Assembly: GCA_003559855.1 (NCBI GenBank)
Contig: PWJZ01000038.1
Coordinates: 1-59,013 of the forward strand
Direction of reading: 5' to 3'
DNA from: Bacteroidales bacterium
GTDB taxonomy: Bacteria; Bacteroidota; Bacteroidia; Bacteroidales; UBA7960
DNA length: 59,013 nt
This document shows positions 4,982 through 11,473 of the stretch, one piece after another. How positions within the stretch are numbered: position 1 is the first letter of the stretch; each line of letters opens with the position of its first letter. A program made the translations under genes and the position numbers. The notes below the pieces were generated by a model. It was not told where the DNA came from and did no database searches. It saw only the letters and a program-made list of their open reading frames with translations.

Positions 4982-5440
4982 TCAATCAAAAAAATCGAAA
5001 AGATATTTTGAATTATACTCAACACAAAATTTTTTCAAAAAAATTAAATATTCATCCCTGAAAGACACATGTTGATGATGCTTTTGTTGATTTTCGATAT
5101 ATTTTATCACATTAGGCCTATGCGACATGCTATATGAAAATAAGCCATATCCTTCCTGCCAATGAAATTTAAACTTTGATAATTTCCTTTCATTTATAAA
5201 CCTGGAAGAATCAGATTTGATATCACGTACTAATGCCGGTATATCACAGGGATGCATTCCAAAAAATATATGTATGTGATCGGGCACCGAGTTAATTGCC
5301 AAGGGCTTATGCTTCTGTTTTAGAAGTATCCCTCCAATGTATTTATGAAGTTCATCCCTGAAACTATCTTTTATCAGCGCAGTACGATGTTTAACTGCAA
5401 AAATAAGCTGCATGGAAGTTTGGTAATATGGATTTAGCAT
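4982..5440 (-). mobile_element. RAYT-1: REP-associated IS200-like HUH transposase
   Basis: A Y1-type HUH transposase of the REP-associated TnpA group. The HUH motif reads PDHIHIFF and the catalytic tyrosine is in IKYIENQQKH near the C-terminus; FHWQEGYGLFSYS is typical of RAYTs. I chose the ATG at 5440 (MLNPYYQTSMQLIFAVKHR), which aligns with RAYT starts; an ATG 27 bp upstream would add nine unusual residues. RAYTs are generally domesticated single-copy genes that nick and move REP hairpins rather than themselves. All REPs of this family in the window lie immediately 5' of the gene. There are no IS200 ends with tnpB. Confidence 0.88.
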
Positions 5441-5499
5441 AAGATTAATTTTTGGGTTTATATGCAAAATTAGTTATTTTCTTTTAAGTTTAATCTTAA

Positions 5500-5692: not shown

Positions 5693-6367
5693 GTGCCAGT
5701 ATTCGATAAAACAGCTCCCGGTTATGACCAGTGGTACAAAACCAAGCTCGGCAGTTTTGCTGATAAAGTTGAAACCTGTCTCGCTTTTCGCTTGTTCACT
5801 CCCGAAAAGGGAATGAAAGTGCTTGATGTCGGATGTGGTACAGGCTTGTTCAGCATCCGGCTTGCTGAAGTGGGCTTTAAGCTTACAGGAATTGATGTTT
5901 CCCAGGAGATGCTTGAAATTGCTAAAGATAAAGCAAAACGGAAGAACCTTGAGATTGATTTCAGAGAGATGGGTGTTTATAAGCTGGATTTTGTGGATGA
6001 GAGCTTTGATGCTGTATTTTCAATGGCAACATTTGAGTTTGTGAAATCTCCGCAAAAAGCTTATGATGAAATGTTCAGGGTTTTGAAAAAAGGCGGGAAG
6101 ATTTTAATAGGTATAATTAACAGGGATAGTAGGTGGGGTGTGTTATACATGTCAAAATCGGTAAGGGAAAACTCGGTCTTTAAATACGCTGATTTTAAAA
6201 CTATTGAAGAAATTAAGGGTTTAGACCGTAAAAATGTTAAAGACTGGGGAGAATGTCTGTTCATTCCGCCTGATGCATTTGAACTGGATATAAATATGGA
6301 GAATGAAAAGAAGCTGTCTGAAACCGAAAGGGGAGGGTTTTTTTGTGTGTTGTTTGGGAAGGGTTGA
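5693..6367 (+). CDS. Class I SAM-dependent methyltransferase
   Basis: A 224-residue class I methyltransferase. Motif I is VLDVGCGTGLFSIRL (about 43-57), the acidic ribose-binding residue lies in LTGIDVSQEML (about 65-75), and a motif IV-like FDAVFSMATFEFV follows. The FRVLKKGGKILIGIINR segment is the usual post-motif strand. The start is GTG, since no ATG precedes motif I at a suitable distance. Substrate cannot be told from sequence; the ubiE/menG-like Methyltransf_11 fold is used for quinones, small acids and others. It stands alone between RAYT-1 and the LytTR regulator. Confidence 0.85.
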   Translation: MPVFDKTAPGYDQWYKTKLGSFADKVETCLAFRLFTPEKGMKVLDVGCGTGLFSIRLAEVGFKLTGIDVSQEMLEIAKDKAKRKNLEIDFREMGVYKLDFVDESFDAVFSMATFEFVKSPQKAYDEMFRVLKKGGKILIGIINRDSRWGVLYMSKSVRENSVFKYADFKTIEEIKGLDRKNVKDWGECLFIPPDAFELDINMENEKKLSETERGGFFCVLFGKG

Positions 6368-6472: not shown

Positions 6473-7192
6473 TCACCTTCTCATAAACTCCAAAAAATGC
6501 TCCCTGAACGTTGCACCGATAGGTATCTTTTTGCCCCCTACTACTACATCGTGTTTTTCAATGGCTTCAAGGTGTTTAAGTGCAATAATGTAAGATTTGT
6601 GAATTCGCACAAAGTCATTGGCAGGAAGCATTTCAAGCACATCTTTCATGGTAAGCAATGACATTATCTTTTTCTGACTTGTGTGAAAGCACATATAATT
6701 TCCGTCAGCTTCTATGTATAGGATGTCGTCGGGGTGAACTTTGATTTGCTGCGTTCCGCTTTTGATGAACATGTGAGCTTTGGATTCTTTATTTGATTGT
6801 GCAGGGCTTGAAGTTTCCTGCTTTTCAACCGCCGGGTTTATTAATCCGGAGGCTTTGTTTACTGCTTTGAGAAATCGCTCGTATTTTACCGGCTTTACCA
6901 GGTAGTCAACGGCATTGTATTCGTAACTTTCGGCGGCGAACTCAGGGTAGGCTGTAGTAAAAATTACCTTAGGCGGTGCAGCAAGCGACTTATAAAGTTC
7001 TATACCCGATAGCTCCGGCATGTTAATGTCCAAAAATATCAGATCGACTTTAACCCTGTTAAGGTAATCCAATGCCTTGAAAGGGTTGCTGAAGCACTCC
7101 GCCAGCTCCAGAAAAGGAGTGCGCAAAATGTAATCCTTTATCAGCTCAAGAGCAAAAGGCTCATCGTCTATTACGGTGCAACGTATTTTCAT
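6473..7192 (-). CDS. LytTR-family response regulator
   Basis: A 239-residue regulator with an N-terminal receiver domain and a C-terminal LytTR DNA-binding domain. The receiver acidic pair is D9-D10, the phospho-acceptor is D55 in LIFLDINMPE, and the conserved lysine lies in DYLVKPVKYERF. The LytTR domain (about 140-239) contains IKVHPDDILYIEADGNY and FVRIHKSYIIAL. It should bind DNA as a dimer when phosphorylated. Its partner is the sensor kinase upstream on the same strand, separated by an unusually long 254-bp repeat-rich spacer. Targets are unknown. Confidence 0.93.
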   Translation of the reverse strand: MKIRCTVIDDEPFALELIKDYILRTPFLELAECFSNPFKALDYLNRVKVDLIFLDINMPELSGIELYKSLAAPPKVIFTTAYPEFAAESYEYNAVDYLVKPVKYERFLKAVNKASGLINPAVEKQETSSPAQSNKESKAHMFIKSGTQQIKVHPDDILYIEADGNYMCFHTSQKKIMSLLTMKDVLEMLPANDFVRIHKSYIIALKHLEAIEKHDVVVGGKKIPIGATFREHFLEFMRR

Positions 7193-7446: not shown

Positions 7447-8484
7447 TCATTCAAGCTTCAACAATAACTTTACCGTAAAAACACCATCACTTTTATTTAT
7501 ACTCAGCTTATGCTTGCCGGGATACATAATTTCCAGCCGCTTACGTGTGTTTTTTATGCCTATACCAGATTCTTTATTATTCATCGATTGTGTGTTTTTG
7601 AAGACAGGGTTTTGTGAAATAAATTCCAGCTCATCATTTTGAAAACTCATAGAAATGTTGATCTCCGATTTATGTTCCAGCTTCACACCATGCTTAAAAG
7701 CATTTTCAATGAATGATATCAGTATGAGAGGTGCTATCCGGTAGCCGGTATAATTGCCGTTGACCTCAAAATTTACTGTAACCGGTATATCTTTTGCAAA
7801 ACGCATCTTCTGAAGCCTGATATAATTTTGAATGTATTCGATCTCTCTTTCGACGCCGATTTTTTCCACATTACTTTCGTAAATAATATAACGCATCAGT
7901 CCCGATAATTTTTCGATTATGTCGGCTGTTCTTTCGTCGCCTGAGCTGCTGGCGCTGGAATATGCCATATTCAGCACGTTAAACAGAAAGTGGGGGCTAA
8001 GCTGTGTTTTAAGGAAATTGAGCTCAGCCGACAGCTTTTCGCGGGCAAGCTCCTGCTTTTTCTTTTCGCTGACTATCCAGTTTTTAGTAAAACCATAAGT
8101 AAGGGCCAGGGAAATTATAATAAAATGAACAAATCCATTCATGGTAAACTGACTGATAAAGGGTTCATCAACATCTGAGTAAACGTATGTCATAAAGAAA
8201 AAGTCGACAAATGTTTCAATAAAAGTTGAGCCGACAAATATCACAAGCAGCCAAATCCAGAATTTACGTATTTGCTTTTTTATTGCGTAGTAAGGTATCA
8301 GCCAGAGTGCTACCGAATAAAATATTAATGCATTAATGATTGTCCCGACTGTTACCGGCAATATCAAAGTGCCGTCAATTTGCCTGAACGGGCCTATTGT
8401 CTTGATAAACAATATTGCTATTATGTATAAGATAAGCCATACGGCTATGTGTATCAAAGGTTCGGTATATTTCTTCCGGAACAT
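7447..8484 (-). CDS. LytS/YehU-type membrane sensor histidine kinase
   Basis: A sensor kinase of the His_kinase (PF06580) family. Four or so membrane segments occupy the N-terminal half. The phospho-accepting histidine is in the motif QLSPHFLFNVLN, preceded by a coiled linker rich in K and E. An HATPase_c domain closes the protein, with the N-box LISFIENAFKHGVK and G-box GIGIKNTRKRLEIMY. I use the ATG giving MFRKKYTEPLIHIAVW; an ATG 57 bp upstream (8541) is in frame and possible. It is transcribed before the LytTR regulator and likely phosphorylates it. Ligand unknown. Confidence 0.9.
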   Translation of the reverse strand: MFRKKYTEPLIHIAVWLILYIIAILFIKTIGPFRQIDGTLILPVTVGTIINALIFYSVALWLIPYYAIKKQIRKFWIWLLVIFVGSTFIETFVDFFFMTYVYSDVDEPFISQFTMNGFVHFIIISLALTYGFTKNWIVSEKKKQELAREKLSAELNFLKTQLSPHFLFNVLNMAYSSASSSGDERTADIIEKLSGLMRYIIYESNVEKIGVEREIEYIQNYIRLQKMRFAKDIPVTVNFEVNGNYTGYRIAPLILISFIENAFKHGVKLEHKSEINISMSFQNDELEFISQNPVFKNTQSMNNKESGIGIKNTRKRLEIMYPGKHKLSINKSDGVFTVKLLLKLE

Positions 8485-8550
8485 CAGGGGAGTATTTTGC
8501 CAATTAATTTTTACAACAAAATAAATCAAAAAATCCAACAATATTTATTA

Positions 8551-8616
8551 AAATTTATGAATTGCCGGAATATTATTTAAACATTGAATTTTAATTGATG
8601 AAAGCAATAAAGAAAA
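8551..8616. repeat. Direct repeat A, left copy
   Basis: About 66 bp beginning AAATTTATGAATTG and containing TATTTAAACATTG and TTTTAATTGATGAAA, repeated at 9581-9647. It covers the region just upstream of the sensor kinase and so may include that gene's promoter. Confidence 0.75.
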
Positions 8617-8617
8617 C

Positions 8618-8837
8618 ACCATACTGATGCCGCTATGCGGCTTTTGAGAATATAGGAAATTCGTGATTCATTATGATAGCCATCCAACCCAAAAGCCTCG
8701 TCAGCGGCGAAAGTATGGTAGCATAAGCATTATGATTGCCTCATCCAACCCAAAGCCGCATCGCGGCGAAAGTATGGTAGCCAAACGTGATCGTCTCACC
8801 CAACCCAAAGCCGCATCGCGGCGAAAGTATGGTAGCC
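8618..8837. repeat. REP palindrome family 2, upstream cluster (four copies)
   Basis: Copies at 8618-8646 (reverse orientation, GCCGCTATGCGGC hairpin), 8684-8722, 8745-8782 and 8800-8837. The forward copies read CCAACCCAAAGCCGC, hairpin, then GCGGCGAAAGTATGGTAGC. Two copies are nearly identical. The tail GGCGAAAGTATGGTAGC resembles the family 1 tail GGTGAAATAACGGTAGC at 13 of 17 positions. A short open frame across the array is a by-product of its periodicity. Confidence 0.88.
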
Positions 8838-8921
8838 AAAACATGATAATTAACCACTAAAAAATCTTGTTTAATACAATGTTTTATATTTTTACATCGC
8901 TAAAAAAATAACATTTTATCC

Positions 8922-8955
8922 AAAAATTTAATTAAAAACCAAAAAACAAAAAGTC
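8922..8955 (+). repeat. Direct repeat B, copy before RAYT-2
   Basis: CAAAAATTTAATTAA followed by an ACCAAAAAACAAAA tract ends directly at the RAYT-2 ATG. Nearly the same leader (CAAAAATTTAATTAATAAC then AAAAAACAAAA) ends at the ATG of the serine hydrolase (9742-9775). Confidence 0.65.
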
Positions 8956-9420
8956 ATGGCTAACACTTACACACAAATCAACGTACATTCGGTATTTTCA
9001 GTAAAAGGTAATCATAGCATATTAAATACCGAATTAAGACTTAAATTATTCCAATACATTCATGGAATATTAAAAAACATGGATTTATTCCCAATTGCGG
9101 TTAATGGATGGAAAGATCATGTTCACACATTTTTTGAATTAAAACCTGACATATCTTTATCAAAATCTATGGAAATTGTTAAAACAAATTCATCCAAATG
9201 GATCAATGAAAATCGTTTTGTACCCGGCAAATTTGAATGGCAACGTGGTTTTGGTGCTTTTTCTCACTCGCGTTCTCAACGTGATGTTGTAATAAAATAT
9301 ATAATGAACCAGGAAGAATATCACCGGAGTAAAGAAAACACGTTTAGAAAAGAATATCTTTCATTGCTTAATCAGTCAGAAATTGATTACGATCCTCGTT
9401 ATCTTTTTGAATTTTATTAA
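8956..9420 (+). mobile_element. RAYT-2: REP-associated IS200-like HUH transposase
   Basis: A 154-residue HUH/Y1 transposase. The HUH motif is KDHVHTFF (H55, H57) and the candidate catalytic tyrosine is Y115 in VIKYIMNQEEYH. The N-terminus MANTYTQINVHSVFSVKG is typical of RAYTs. It is clearly diverged from RAYT-1, and it is flanked on both sides by its own REP family in opposite orientations: forward copies upstream, reverse copies downstream. The position occupied by Tyr in the RAYT-1 FSYS segment is His here (FSHS); I do not take this as the catalytic residue. The gene appears intact. Confidence 0.9.
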
Positions 9421-9427
9421 GGTTCCG

Positions 9428-9565
9428 CCATATAGTCGCCGTTACACGGCTTTTGGTATATGGTGTAATTTTTTATTTTACCATACTGTCGCCGCTATGC
9501 GGCTTTAAGGGATGTTAAATTGAATTCTTTTTATCTACCATACTGTCGCCGCTATGCGGTTTTTT
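9428..9565. repeat. REP palindrome family 2, downstream cluster (three copies)
   Basis: Copies at 9428-9454 (CCATATAGTCGCCGTTACACGG), 9480-9508 and 9537-9565 (ACCATACTGTCGCCGCTATG then CGG). All are reverse complements of the copies upstream of RAYT-2, so the transposase is bracketed by inverted REPs. Confidence 0.87.
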
Positions 9566-9580
9566 TGAAATGATTATGTA

Positions 9581-9647
9581 AATATATGAATTGATGGTAT
9601 TTTATTTAAACATTGCATTTTAATTGATGAAAACAATATGGAAAAAA
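9581..9647. repeat. Direct repeat A, right copy
   Basis: AAATATATGAATTG...TTTAAACATTG...TTTTAATTGATGAAAACAATA matches the left copy at 8551-8616 with about ten differences. The rest of the 355-bp gap between RAYT-2 and the serine hydrolase holds only repeat B and AT-rich DNA. Confidence 0.75.
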
Positions 9648-9775
9648 TTTTTCCTGATACATCAATTATTTTCGTTTGTTCAAATAATTTATCATTTCAT
9701 TGTTATGTAGCTCATTATATTTGGAGCGCATTTAATTAATGCACAAAAATTTAATTAATAACAAAAAACAAAACC

Positions 9776-11473
9776 ATGAAACGAGTAATTATTTTAACGT
9801 TATTAATAAAGACAATGGTTGTCTTTATTGGAAGTGCTCAGAGCATTTCTGCTGAACACCTTGAGTACAAGGTTGATTCATTGGTAGCTCTGCAGCATAG
9901 CGACGGACAGCCCGGTGGTGTTATCGGAATATTGTCGGGAGACGATGTTGTTCTGAAAAAAAGCTTTGGTATTAAAGACCTGGAGCAGAACAAGCCTGTT
10001 GATGAAAACACGCTTTTTGACATTGCCTCAACCGCAAAGCATATCACTGCTTTTGCAATACTGATGCTTGAGTATCAGGGCAAGCTGAATCTTGATGATA
10101 ATATAATTGATTATCTTCCAGGTTTTCCCGGCTTTGAGCACGAAGTTACAATCCGTCATTTGCTTCAGCATACAAGCGGGATTCCCTCTACTGATGTATT
10201 AAGGCTTTTTGCGGGTTGGTCACTTGATGAAACATGGACACACCAGGATGAGATTGATCTGATAAAGCGTTATTTTCATCTTAATTTCAAGCCAAACACA
10301 AAGCATGTTTATTCCAATGCGGGATATTCATTGTTGGCCACAATAGTGGAGTCGGTCAGCGGGCAGAGATTTGCCGAATTTGTTGAAGAAAACATTTTTA
10401 TGCCTCTTCAAATGAATAGTTCTGTAGTATATGATGAAAAGTACCGGGAAAAAGAGCTGGCGGGTGCAGCGATTGGATACAGAAAAACCGGTGAAGGGTT
10501 TACGCCTTTTAGCACCACAGATGGTTTTAGCTATGGAAGCGGAAATGTGTTCGTAAGCTTGGATGATATGATAAGTTGGGGTAAAAATATTTTCTCACCC
10601 GATATAATTAGTGATAATATTCTTGAAAAGATCAGCAATCCATATAATACTTTTGAAGATGGAGATACAATAAATTACACTTACGGTTTTTATTCACGCA
10701 AATACAAGGGTGTGAGAATGGTTGACCATAGTGGCGGTTCATTGGGTTTCAGGAGTCAGTTCATGGTCTTTCCCGATGAGAATTTACTGGTATTCATGAT
10801 GCTTAACAACGAAGGCATTAATTCGCGTCAACTGGCAATGGGCATTGTTGATCTGATGCTGGCAGATAAATTGGTTGATGAAGTAGATGAAGAAAGAACA
10901 GTTGTTGAACCGGATAATAAGGCAATAAAGCCTTTTGAAGGGATCTACAGGCTGCCTGAAGGTATGGAGCTGACTTTTGAGCTGGAAAGAGATACTTTCT
11001 GGCTAAAGATTCCTGGCCAACCCAAATTTCAATTATTTGCCGGGAGTGAAAACAAATTTTTCCTGGAAGCATTTAATGCGCAGTGTACTTTTTTACAGGA
11101 TGAAGATGGTAAGGTGAACGAAATGATATGGCGCGAGGGTGGAAAAGATTACATTTCGCCGAGAGTTGAAAAGCCTGTGCCACCAACAGATAAAGAGCTG
11201 GCAAAATACGCCGGGCAATTCCATCAAACGGAACTGGATGCCGAATATTCAGTGCATTTTGAAGAAGGCACTCTTACTTTATATACTCCTGAAACTTTTA
11301 AGAAATATCTGGGCTTCGAGTCGGTGGATTTAATGCATATGCGTGATGATATTTTTGTGGCTGAGAGGTGGCTGGGAATGATAGAGTTTACACGCAATGG
11401 TGATGGGGAGATAGACGGTATGGTATTGCGTAATGTGGGAAGGCTGCAAAATTTGAGATTTGTTAAGCTCTGA
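9776..11473 (+). CDS. Serine hydrolase, class C beta-lactamase/DD-peptidase fold
   Basis: A 565-residue exported protein. A signal peptide covers about residues 1-22. The beta-lactamase-like domain (about 30-365) keeps all three motifs: S85-T-A-K88 (nucleophile and base), Y179-S-N181, and H318-S-G-G. A C-terminal beta-rich region (about 375-565) has two similar halves, each with a FEGIY or YAGQF-type opening, as in DUF3471-bearing esterases and peptidases. It likely hydrolyses D-amino-acid peptides or esters in the periplasm; a true beta-lactamase role cannot be inferred. It shares its 5' leader (repeat B) with the RAYT-2 gene. The neighbouring convergent gene is an M55 D-aminopeptidase, a thematic match. 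Confidence 0.9.
   Translation: MKRVIILTLLIKTMVVFIGSAQSISAEHLEYKVDSLVALQHSDGQPGGVIGILSGDDVVLKKSFGIKDLEQNKPVDENTLFDIASTAKHITAFAILMLEYQGKLNLDDNIIDYLPGFPGFEHEVTIRHLLQHTSGIPSTDVLRLFAGWSLDETWTHQDEIDLIKRYFHLNFKPNTKHVYSNAGYSLLATIVESVSGQRFAEFVEENIFMPLQMNSSVVYDEKYREKELAGAAIGYRKTGEGFTPFSTTDGFSYGSGNVFVSLDDMISWGKNIFSPDIISDNILEKISNPYNTFEDGDTINYTYGFYSRKYKGVRMVDHSGGSLGFRSQFMVFPDENLLVFMMLNNEGINSRQLAMGIVDLMLADKLVDEVDEERTVVEPDNKAIKPFEGIYRLPEGMELTFELERDTFWLKIPGQPKFQLFAGSENKFFLEAFNAQCTFLQDEDGKVNEMIWREGGKDYISPRVEKPVPPTDKELAKYAGQFHQTELDAEYSVHFEEGTLTLYTPETFKKYLGFESVDLMHMRDDIFVAERWLGMIEFTRNGDGEIDGMVLRNVGRLQNLRFVKL

Follow-up and report, generated by a model that had tools for sequence, protein, structure and literature searches.

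In the genome of a Bacteroidales bacterium, the gene of a Y1 (HUH) transposase, RAYT-2, lies together with flanking REPs as an insertion between divergent genes for a sensor histidine kinase and a serine hydrolase, and 77 nt of the target are present in direct orientation on both sides of it. The insertion, the 77-nt target duplication and the boundaries of the inserted module are well supported by comparison with a relative that carries the empty site. In our opinion, the probable history of the locus is insertion of the REP-bounded module as one block between the two genes, with the 77-nt target (repeat A) duplicated on either side. Coordinates are given in Table 1, where positions refer to the window, that is, the whole stretch of 59,013 nt that was analysed.

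Table 1. Features of the RAYT-2 locus (positions in the window) and duplicated MoxR gene tails in other genomes (positions in each locus).
Feature	Position	Strand	Remarks
Sensor histidine kinase (His_kinase PF06580)	7447..8484	-	start ATG at 8484; borders the insertion on the left
Repeat A, left copy (duplicated target, upstream of kinase)	8540..8616	.	64/77 identical to 9569-9645
Inserted module: REPs, leader, Y1 transposase gene and REPs, 952 nt	8617..9568	+	missing in G003
Outermost left REP	8618..8645	+	head end ACCATACT towards A; GGTAG not intact
Three other left REPs	8684..8840	-	inverted relative to right-hand REPs; GGTAG end faces gene
RAYT-2 upstream region	8842..8920	+	no copy of 9646-9743
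Repeat B, left copy (RAYT-2 leader)	8921..8951	+	93.5% to 9744-9773, 31 columns
RAYT-2, 154-aa Y1 (HUH) transposase	8956..9420	+	Y1_Tnp PF01797, E 2.6e-23
Three right REPs	9428..9563	+	fold z -2.4, -2.2, -1.4
Repeat A, right copy (duplicated target, upstream of hydrolase)	9569..9645	.	right flank as in G003, left flank REP
Hydrolase upstream region, single-copy	9646..9743	+	contains ATTATATTTGG, common to G003
Repeat B, right copy (hydrolase leader)	9744..9773	+	matches 8921-8951
Beta-lactamase-fold serine hydrolase (PF00144, DUF3471)	9776..11473	+	right neighbour; 76% to G003
MoxR tail duplication, L127	3847-3897 and 4746-4796		51 nt; Y1 transposase module as cargo
MoxR tail duplication, L168	2452-2533 and 3185-3266		82 nt
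MoxR tail duplication, L169	2468-2538 and 3224-3294		71 nt
MoxR tail duplication, L173	1916-1992 and 2671-2747		77 nt

The comparison covered four genomes of the genus, that of the window included, and 47 of the family. The locus without RAYT-2, which the first-pass annotation had proposed to look for in relatives, was found in G003, a genome of the same genus and the source of the one empty site from it: the kinase and hydrolase genes are divergent and 245 nt apart, with a single A and without the transposase. G038 and G035, which belong to another genus, also have the divergent pair without the transposase. The kinase ORF of the window (7447-8541) has the Pfam His_kinase domain (PF06580, E 5e-24), and its alignment with the G003 kinase starts at residue 1 (85% identity). 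Kinase relatives at E 1e-40 or better occur in 7 of the 47 family genomes, own included; in two of them, G032 and G037, kinase and hydrolase are on different contigs. Within the genus, hydrolase matches were found in G003 (76%) and G001 (51%, with different genes upstream), and none in G002 at E 1e-60.

Duplication of a target by insertion is recognised by a single-copy empty site and by junctions that fall at the ends of the element, and comparison with G003 reveals both. The 60 nt on the left-hand side of the left A follow G003 while those of the right A do not; on the right flank, the right A continues as in G003 and the left A does not. The REP starts where the left A ends, the right A starts where the REP ends, and homology to G003 stops at the outer limits of the outermost REPs. 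Such junctions bear on the idea that A was tandemly duplicated first by replication slippage, and that the module entered later between the copies without a duplication of its own. Slippage would agree with the habit of the IS200/IS605 family, whose members make no larger target duplications according to the section of PMC2817692 that deals with them. However, it demands insertion exactly at the junction, as both REP ends abut A copies, and A is single in G003, with one matching block each in G035 and G038 at the intergenic region. We thus regard slippage as quite unlikely.

Repeat A is an ungapped direct repeat with 83% identity between copies. The first-pass annotation had described direct repeats A and B on each side of the transposase gene, and both are real; the positions given for A, 8551 and 9581, fall inside the repeat but are one base out of register. 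When the own genome was searched with 8540-8620, the query itself (E 1.3e-36) and 9574-9645 (E 7e-17) were retrieved; no third copy was seen among the 40 matches listed, the next one having an E value of 0.06. A dispersed repeat is ruled out by the finding of A at two places only in that search. The two copies have diverged by 17%, hence they are not one stretch assembled twice, and an assembly artefact is ruled out as well.

Alignment of the two window copies with that of G003 requires no gap. Fifty of the 77 positions are identical in all three and 4 differ in all three; 14 are shared by the window copies only, 5 by the left copy and G003 only, and 4 by the right copy and G003 only. By the excess of agreement between the window copies against G003, the duplication postdates the split from G003, and it has had time to accumulate 17% divergence. 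The same counts weigh on another scenario, in which a circular or linear donor fragment with A beside the module underwent Campbell-type homologous recombination at A, yielding A-module-A. Flanking repeats of any length can arise in this manner with no odd transposition step, and the 17% divergence could mean that one copy derives from another strain. The predominance of sites shared by left and right copies (14, against 5 and 4) assigns both to the same lineage, however; the donor must already have the module beside A, which shifts the question, and no such donor was seen among the RAYT-2 loci fetched. This makes the scenario unlikely.

If the module did enter the kinase/hydrolase intergenic region as one block, the simplest route would be its joining to a pair of nicks or ends with a stagger of about 77 nt; fill-in synthesis at the staggered ends would then place A on both sides. 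The cutting might have been done by the module's own enzyme. Points against this explanation include that most other Y1 loci lack a flanking duplication and that it does not account for repeat B. RAYT-2 shares the Y1_Tnp domain with the IS200/IS605 family, for which, as far as the treatment in PMC2817692 goes, no larger target duplications are reported, whereas here one finds 77 nt with an empty site. Such a duplication is an unexpected footprint for an enzyme type to which large target duplications are not ascribed. For IS1549 and IS1634, PMC2266710 describes long, variable direct repeats of the target (8-514 bp), said to lack a mechanistic model; those elements have IS4-related DDE transposases, unlike the Y1 enzyme found here. 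At the RAYT-2 locus, filled and empty sites can be compared directly and the ends are defined; together with the unexpectedly long duplication, this makes the insertion chemistry testable.

G038 and G035 have in common a 70-nt intergenic block (74%, E 2e-9), which overlaps the left half of A. We take A to be a putative control region upstream of both kinase and hydrolase. Because A overlaps a conserved block, an insertion that leaves each neighbour with an A could be tolerated; the target copy retained by the kinase and by the hydrolase thus suggests a reason why this one was. To the right of A, in the single-copy part, TATATTTG is common to G003 and is presumably promoter-like. A crude promoter scan in which TTG was required at 15-24 nt did not report TATATTTG. 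In the RAYT-2 upstream region, a single match at 8885 (TTG-15 nt-TATATTTT) is also taken by us to be promoter-like.

Repeat B aligns with one gap. It had been said to end exactly at the ATG of both genes, and this proved inexact, as it stops short of them, by 4 nt at RAYT-2 (ATG at 8956) and by 2 nt at the hydrolase (ATG at 9776). With a local score of 26, the B pair is the best of 25,200 leader pairs (225 ORFs) and joint best of 109,278 (468 ORFs, with 751,674 nt of genome sequence covered). Plain chance is rejected as the origin of B, since the pair is still joint top with the leader sample doubled. The other top pairs, by eye, are mostly members of one leader family.

The presence of A and B in the same order on both sides, together with the high score of B, had led to the proposal that the whole region from A to B was duplicated when the transposase arrived, that the REP array then grew in the left copy and that RAYT-2 keeps the hydrolase leader. 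Intergenic DNA was indeed duplicated, in the form of A, but duplication of the whole block is not supported: A and B match when the two stretches are aligned, and the interval between them does no better than shuffles. The stretch 8842-8919 is not like 9646-9742 (z 0.6; 107 of 400 shuffles score equally), while 9646-9742 matches G003 (z 6.0). Duplication of a block made of A, an interval and B is therefore rejected because the interval is unduplicated. REPs do separate A from B on the left only (8618-8840), as the first-pass annotation pointed out; growth of the array inside one copy is nevertheless unsupported, as the left A runs straight into a REP and REPs bound the module on the right too. 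REPs also surround RAYT-2 relatives elsewhere, and RAYT-2 would need to have entered exactly behind B. On balance, duplication of the whole A-to-B region is very unlikely. As for the leader that RAYT-2 and the hydrolase were suggested to share, the similarity exceeds chance in the sample, but it is not the remnant of a single A-B block: B is a similarity of two leaders that is separate from the A duplication.

The leader of the RAYT-2 relative of G003, which is located elsewhere in that genome, has scores of 15 and 16 with the left and right copies of B, taken together as a pair, and seems to be of the same general type. Scores of B against the relatives' own leader are 15 for G003 and 12 for G002. 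The leaders of both relatives resemble each other (z 8.4) and resemble that of the window little (z 1.4 and 2.2 with the upstream region), a weak match that makes B doubtful as a relic of the relatives' own leader. B could stem from gene conversion between the RAYT-2 and hydrolase leaders, or both may have converged on one type of leader. Similar leaders, of the approximate form ATTATTAAAAATCAG...TTAAATACATTTTATA, precede several ORFs of the genome (39646 of the window, minus strand; L151 4529; L161 1374; L207 2890; L211 10704; L212 15390), and this ATTATTAAAAATCAG...TTAAATACATTTTATA family is possibly a common regulatory leader.

For the wider survey, we used the best 80 of 540 confirmed relatives, so that the sample is not random but made up of the loci nearest RAYT-2; in the family, 44 matches occur in 21 of the 47 genomes, and 30 of the 44 were used. 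Without L036, which was left out, 109 loci, partly non-independent, were used, of which 104, 84 or 99 were tested depending on the analysis, the others having short flanks.

RAYT-2 contains a Y1 transposase (IS200-like) domain, with the motifs DHVH, WQ (read in the translation) and YIMNQEEYH. The last one follows the pattern Y---Q--YH, and the relatives in G003 and G002 have Y---Q--HH. A laxer pattern, Y[IV]..Q..[HYR]H, is found in 90 of the 99 loci nearest RAYT-2 (drawn in part from the best 80 of 540); the class 2 motif Y[IV]..NP occurs in none of the 99 and is also missing from RAYT-2. Judged by its motifs, RAYT-2 would be of the subclass 1.2 type rather than a canonical RAYT (TnpA-REP, class 2). 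With DHVH, WQ and 154 aa, it fits what PMC6006769 sets out for TnpA-Y1 subclass 1.2, namely DH[IV]H, WQ and about 148 aa; the description given there of proteins of about 150 aa, low copy number and occurrence in Bacteroidetes applies too. The Y---Q--HH-type motif given there compares with Y---Q--YH in RAYT-2. A difference is that subclass 1.2, according to PMC6006769, as a rule lacks typical flanking or terminal secondary structures. Around the loci nearest RAYT-2 (drawn in part from the best 80 of 540), inverted flanking repeats are present in 52 of 99, about half of those sampled, against 0 of 118 control placements located 2.6 kb away. Inward-facing TGGTAG on both sides was seen in 14 of these 99 loci (0 of 118 controls), and outward-facing TGGTAG words in 14 of 99 (3 of 118 controls).

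Likeness to RAYT / TnpA-REP modules (REPtrons), as outlined in parts of PMC2817692 and PMC8266576, includes a Y1 (HUH) gene between inverted REPs, few gene copies and a GGTAG element facing the gene. Differences are the Y---Q--[HY]H motif in place of YI..NP, the position of GGTAG, which lies here about 8 nt past the palindrome on the gene-facing side (canonical RAYTs have a GT[AG]G head directly 5' of the palindrome), and the scarcity of REPs. Eleven matches at up to 3 mismatches are found genome-wide, 7 of them at the RAYT-2 locus (1 with a reversed control), well short of the abundance of cognate REPs expected of a canonical RAYT. A further difference is that an insertion with target duplication is visible here, while PMC8266576 states that evidence for movement of tnpA-REP genes is lacking.

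At the locus, three left REPs are on the minus strand and the right REPs on the plus strand, with arms 85-93% complementary. Folded as single DNA strands, the seven REP stretches yield z values of -2.95, -0.23, -1.74, -1.74, -2.35, -2.24 and -1.40. The outermost left REP forms a hairpin of -5.9 kcal/mol (z -2.95); the one at 8688-8726 folds no better than shuffles (z -0.2), and the two other inner left REPs have z -1.7. REPs are also found on both sides of the RAYT-2 relatives in G003 and G002. As the relatives are bounded by REPs and the module of the window has REPs on its right as well, it is more likely that the REPs arrived with the module.

Relatives with 64-71% identity to RAYT-2 exist in five other genomes of the family (G002, G003, G043, G004, G038), and they adjoin other genes. 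When ORFs of 100 aa or more lying up to 7 kb away were compared (tblastn, E 1e-15; several flanks end at contig ends), the sole non-transposase match between the relatives' loci was a repeat-rich protein, common to the window and G004 and about 6 kb from RAYT-2. Between G003 and G002, the similarity of the relatives extends over left REP, leader, gene and right REP, as if the module moved as a block. The nuclease gene next to the G002 site is matched by an orthologue in the genome of the window, but with different genes upstream, and G002 thus offers no clean empty site. In Flavobacterium, a related Y1 gene recurs in several species at a small number of shared syntenic positions (L086, L090, L092, L109, L113, L114, L115 and L126; L101, L103, L118 and L131), as if it were mostly inherited vertically, unlike in the window's family. 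The window has a second Y1 gene, RAYT-1 (4982-5467), 3.5 kb from RAYT-2 and 39% identical to it; at E 0.001, these two are the only Y1 genes of the genome.

When flanks of 1500 nt are considered, 6 of 104 loci nearest RAYT-2 (drawn in part from the best 80 of 540) lie between two copies of a direct repeat of 30 nt or more. With 800-nt flanks, the count is 4 of 84 (L013, L119, L127 and L129; same source of loci) against 1 of 123 shifted controls, a difference too small to carry weight. Two of these four cases are weak (70-74% identity), and only L013 and L127 look convincing. A long target duplication as a general footprint of RAYT-2-like transposases is thus unsupported by the 6 of 104 and 4 of 84 loci. 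The genome has four other REP sites outside the window, and three of them were inspected. Two of the three have no direct repeat of at least 20 nt within about 300 nt, and the remaining one, which lies at a contig start, shows a single 20-nt pair, confined to one side. A scan of 751,674 nt of genome sequence detected 13 local pairs of direct repeats (gap 150-4000 nt, length 40-400 nt, E 1e-6), 3 of them of 100 nt or less: A and two 49-nt pairs on contig C58. The latter (92-96%) are at 8010-8058/9023-9071 and 7718-7766/10463-10511 of L193, near a sequence that we assume to be Rhs-like.

The direct repeat of L127 (51 nt, 98%) is a duplicated MoxR gene tail. In the family of a Verrucomicrobiia genome, the 10 closest MoxR loci, viewed to about 1.5 kb past each gene, include 4 with tails of this kind (51-82 nt, 93-99%). 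The cargo is a Y1 transposase module once, AbrB/PIN-like pairs twice and a DUF5615/DUF433-like pair once. Since other cargo is flanked alike, the duplication in L127 is no transposase-specific footprint; the MoxR tail looks like an insertion hotspot without an integrase, and its varied cargo means that such duplications may stem from general break repair or from DNA capture, and not from the act of a RAYT-2-type enzyme. Duplication of the tail around different cargo in L127 and three related genomes also recalls an integration hotspot, and A could likewise be the attachment site of a site-specific recombinase, like the gene-end duplications around islands. Yet the 952-nt insert has no ORF of 90 aa or more besides RAYT-2, and A is not seen elsewhere in the genome among the 40 matches listed, so that a recombinase site is highly improbable.

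Also in L127, a gene head of 69 nt is duplicated around an insert (5949-6017 and 6539-6607, 64/69 identical). We take this head to be the start of a DUF58-type gene, and the insert has a small ORF that is presumably antitoxin-like. The lengths of the duplications are 77 nt in the window, 51, 82, 71 and 77 nt at the MoxR tails and 69 nt at the DUF58-type head. A tentative speculation is that small selfish cassettes that have no integrase, for example REP-bounded Y1 modules and toxin-antitoxin-like pairs, might insert by a common route whose target duplications measure about 50-80 nt, and might persist where the duplicated stretch keeps both neighbours whole.
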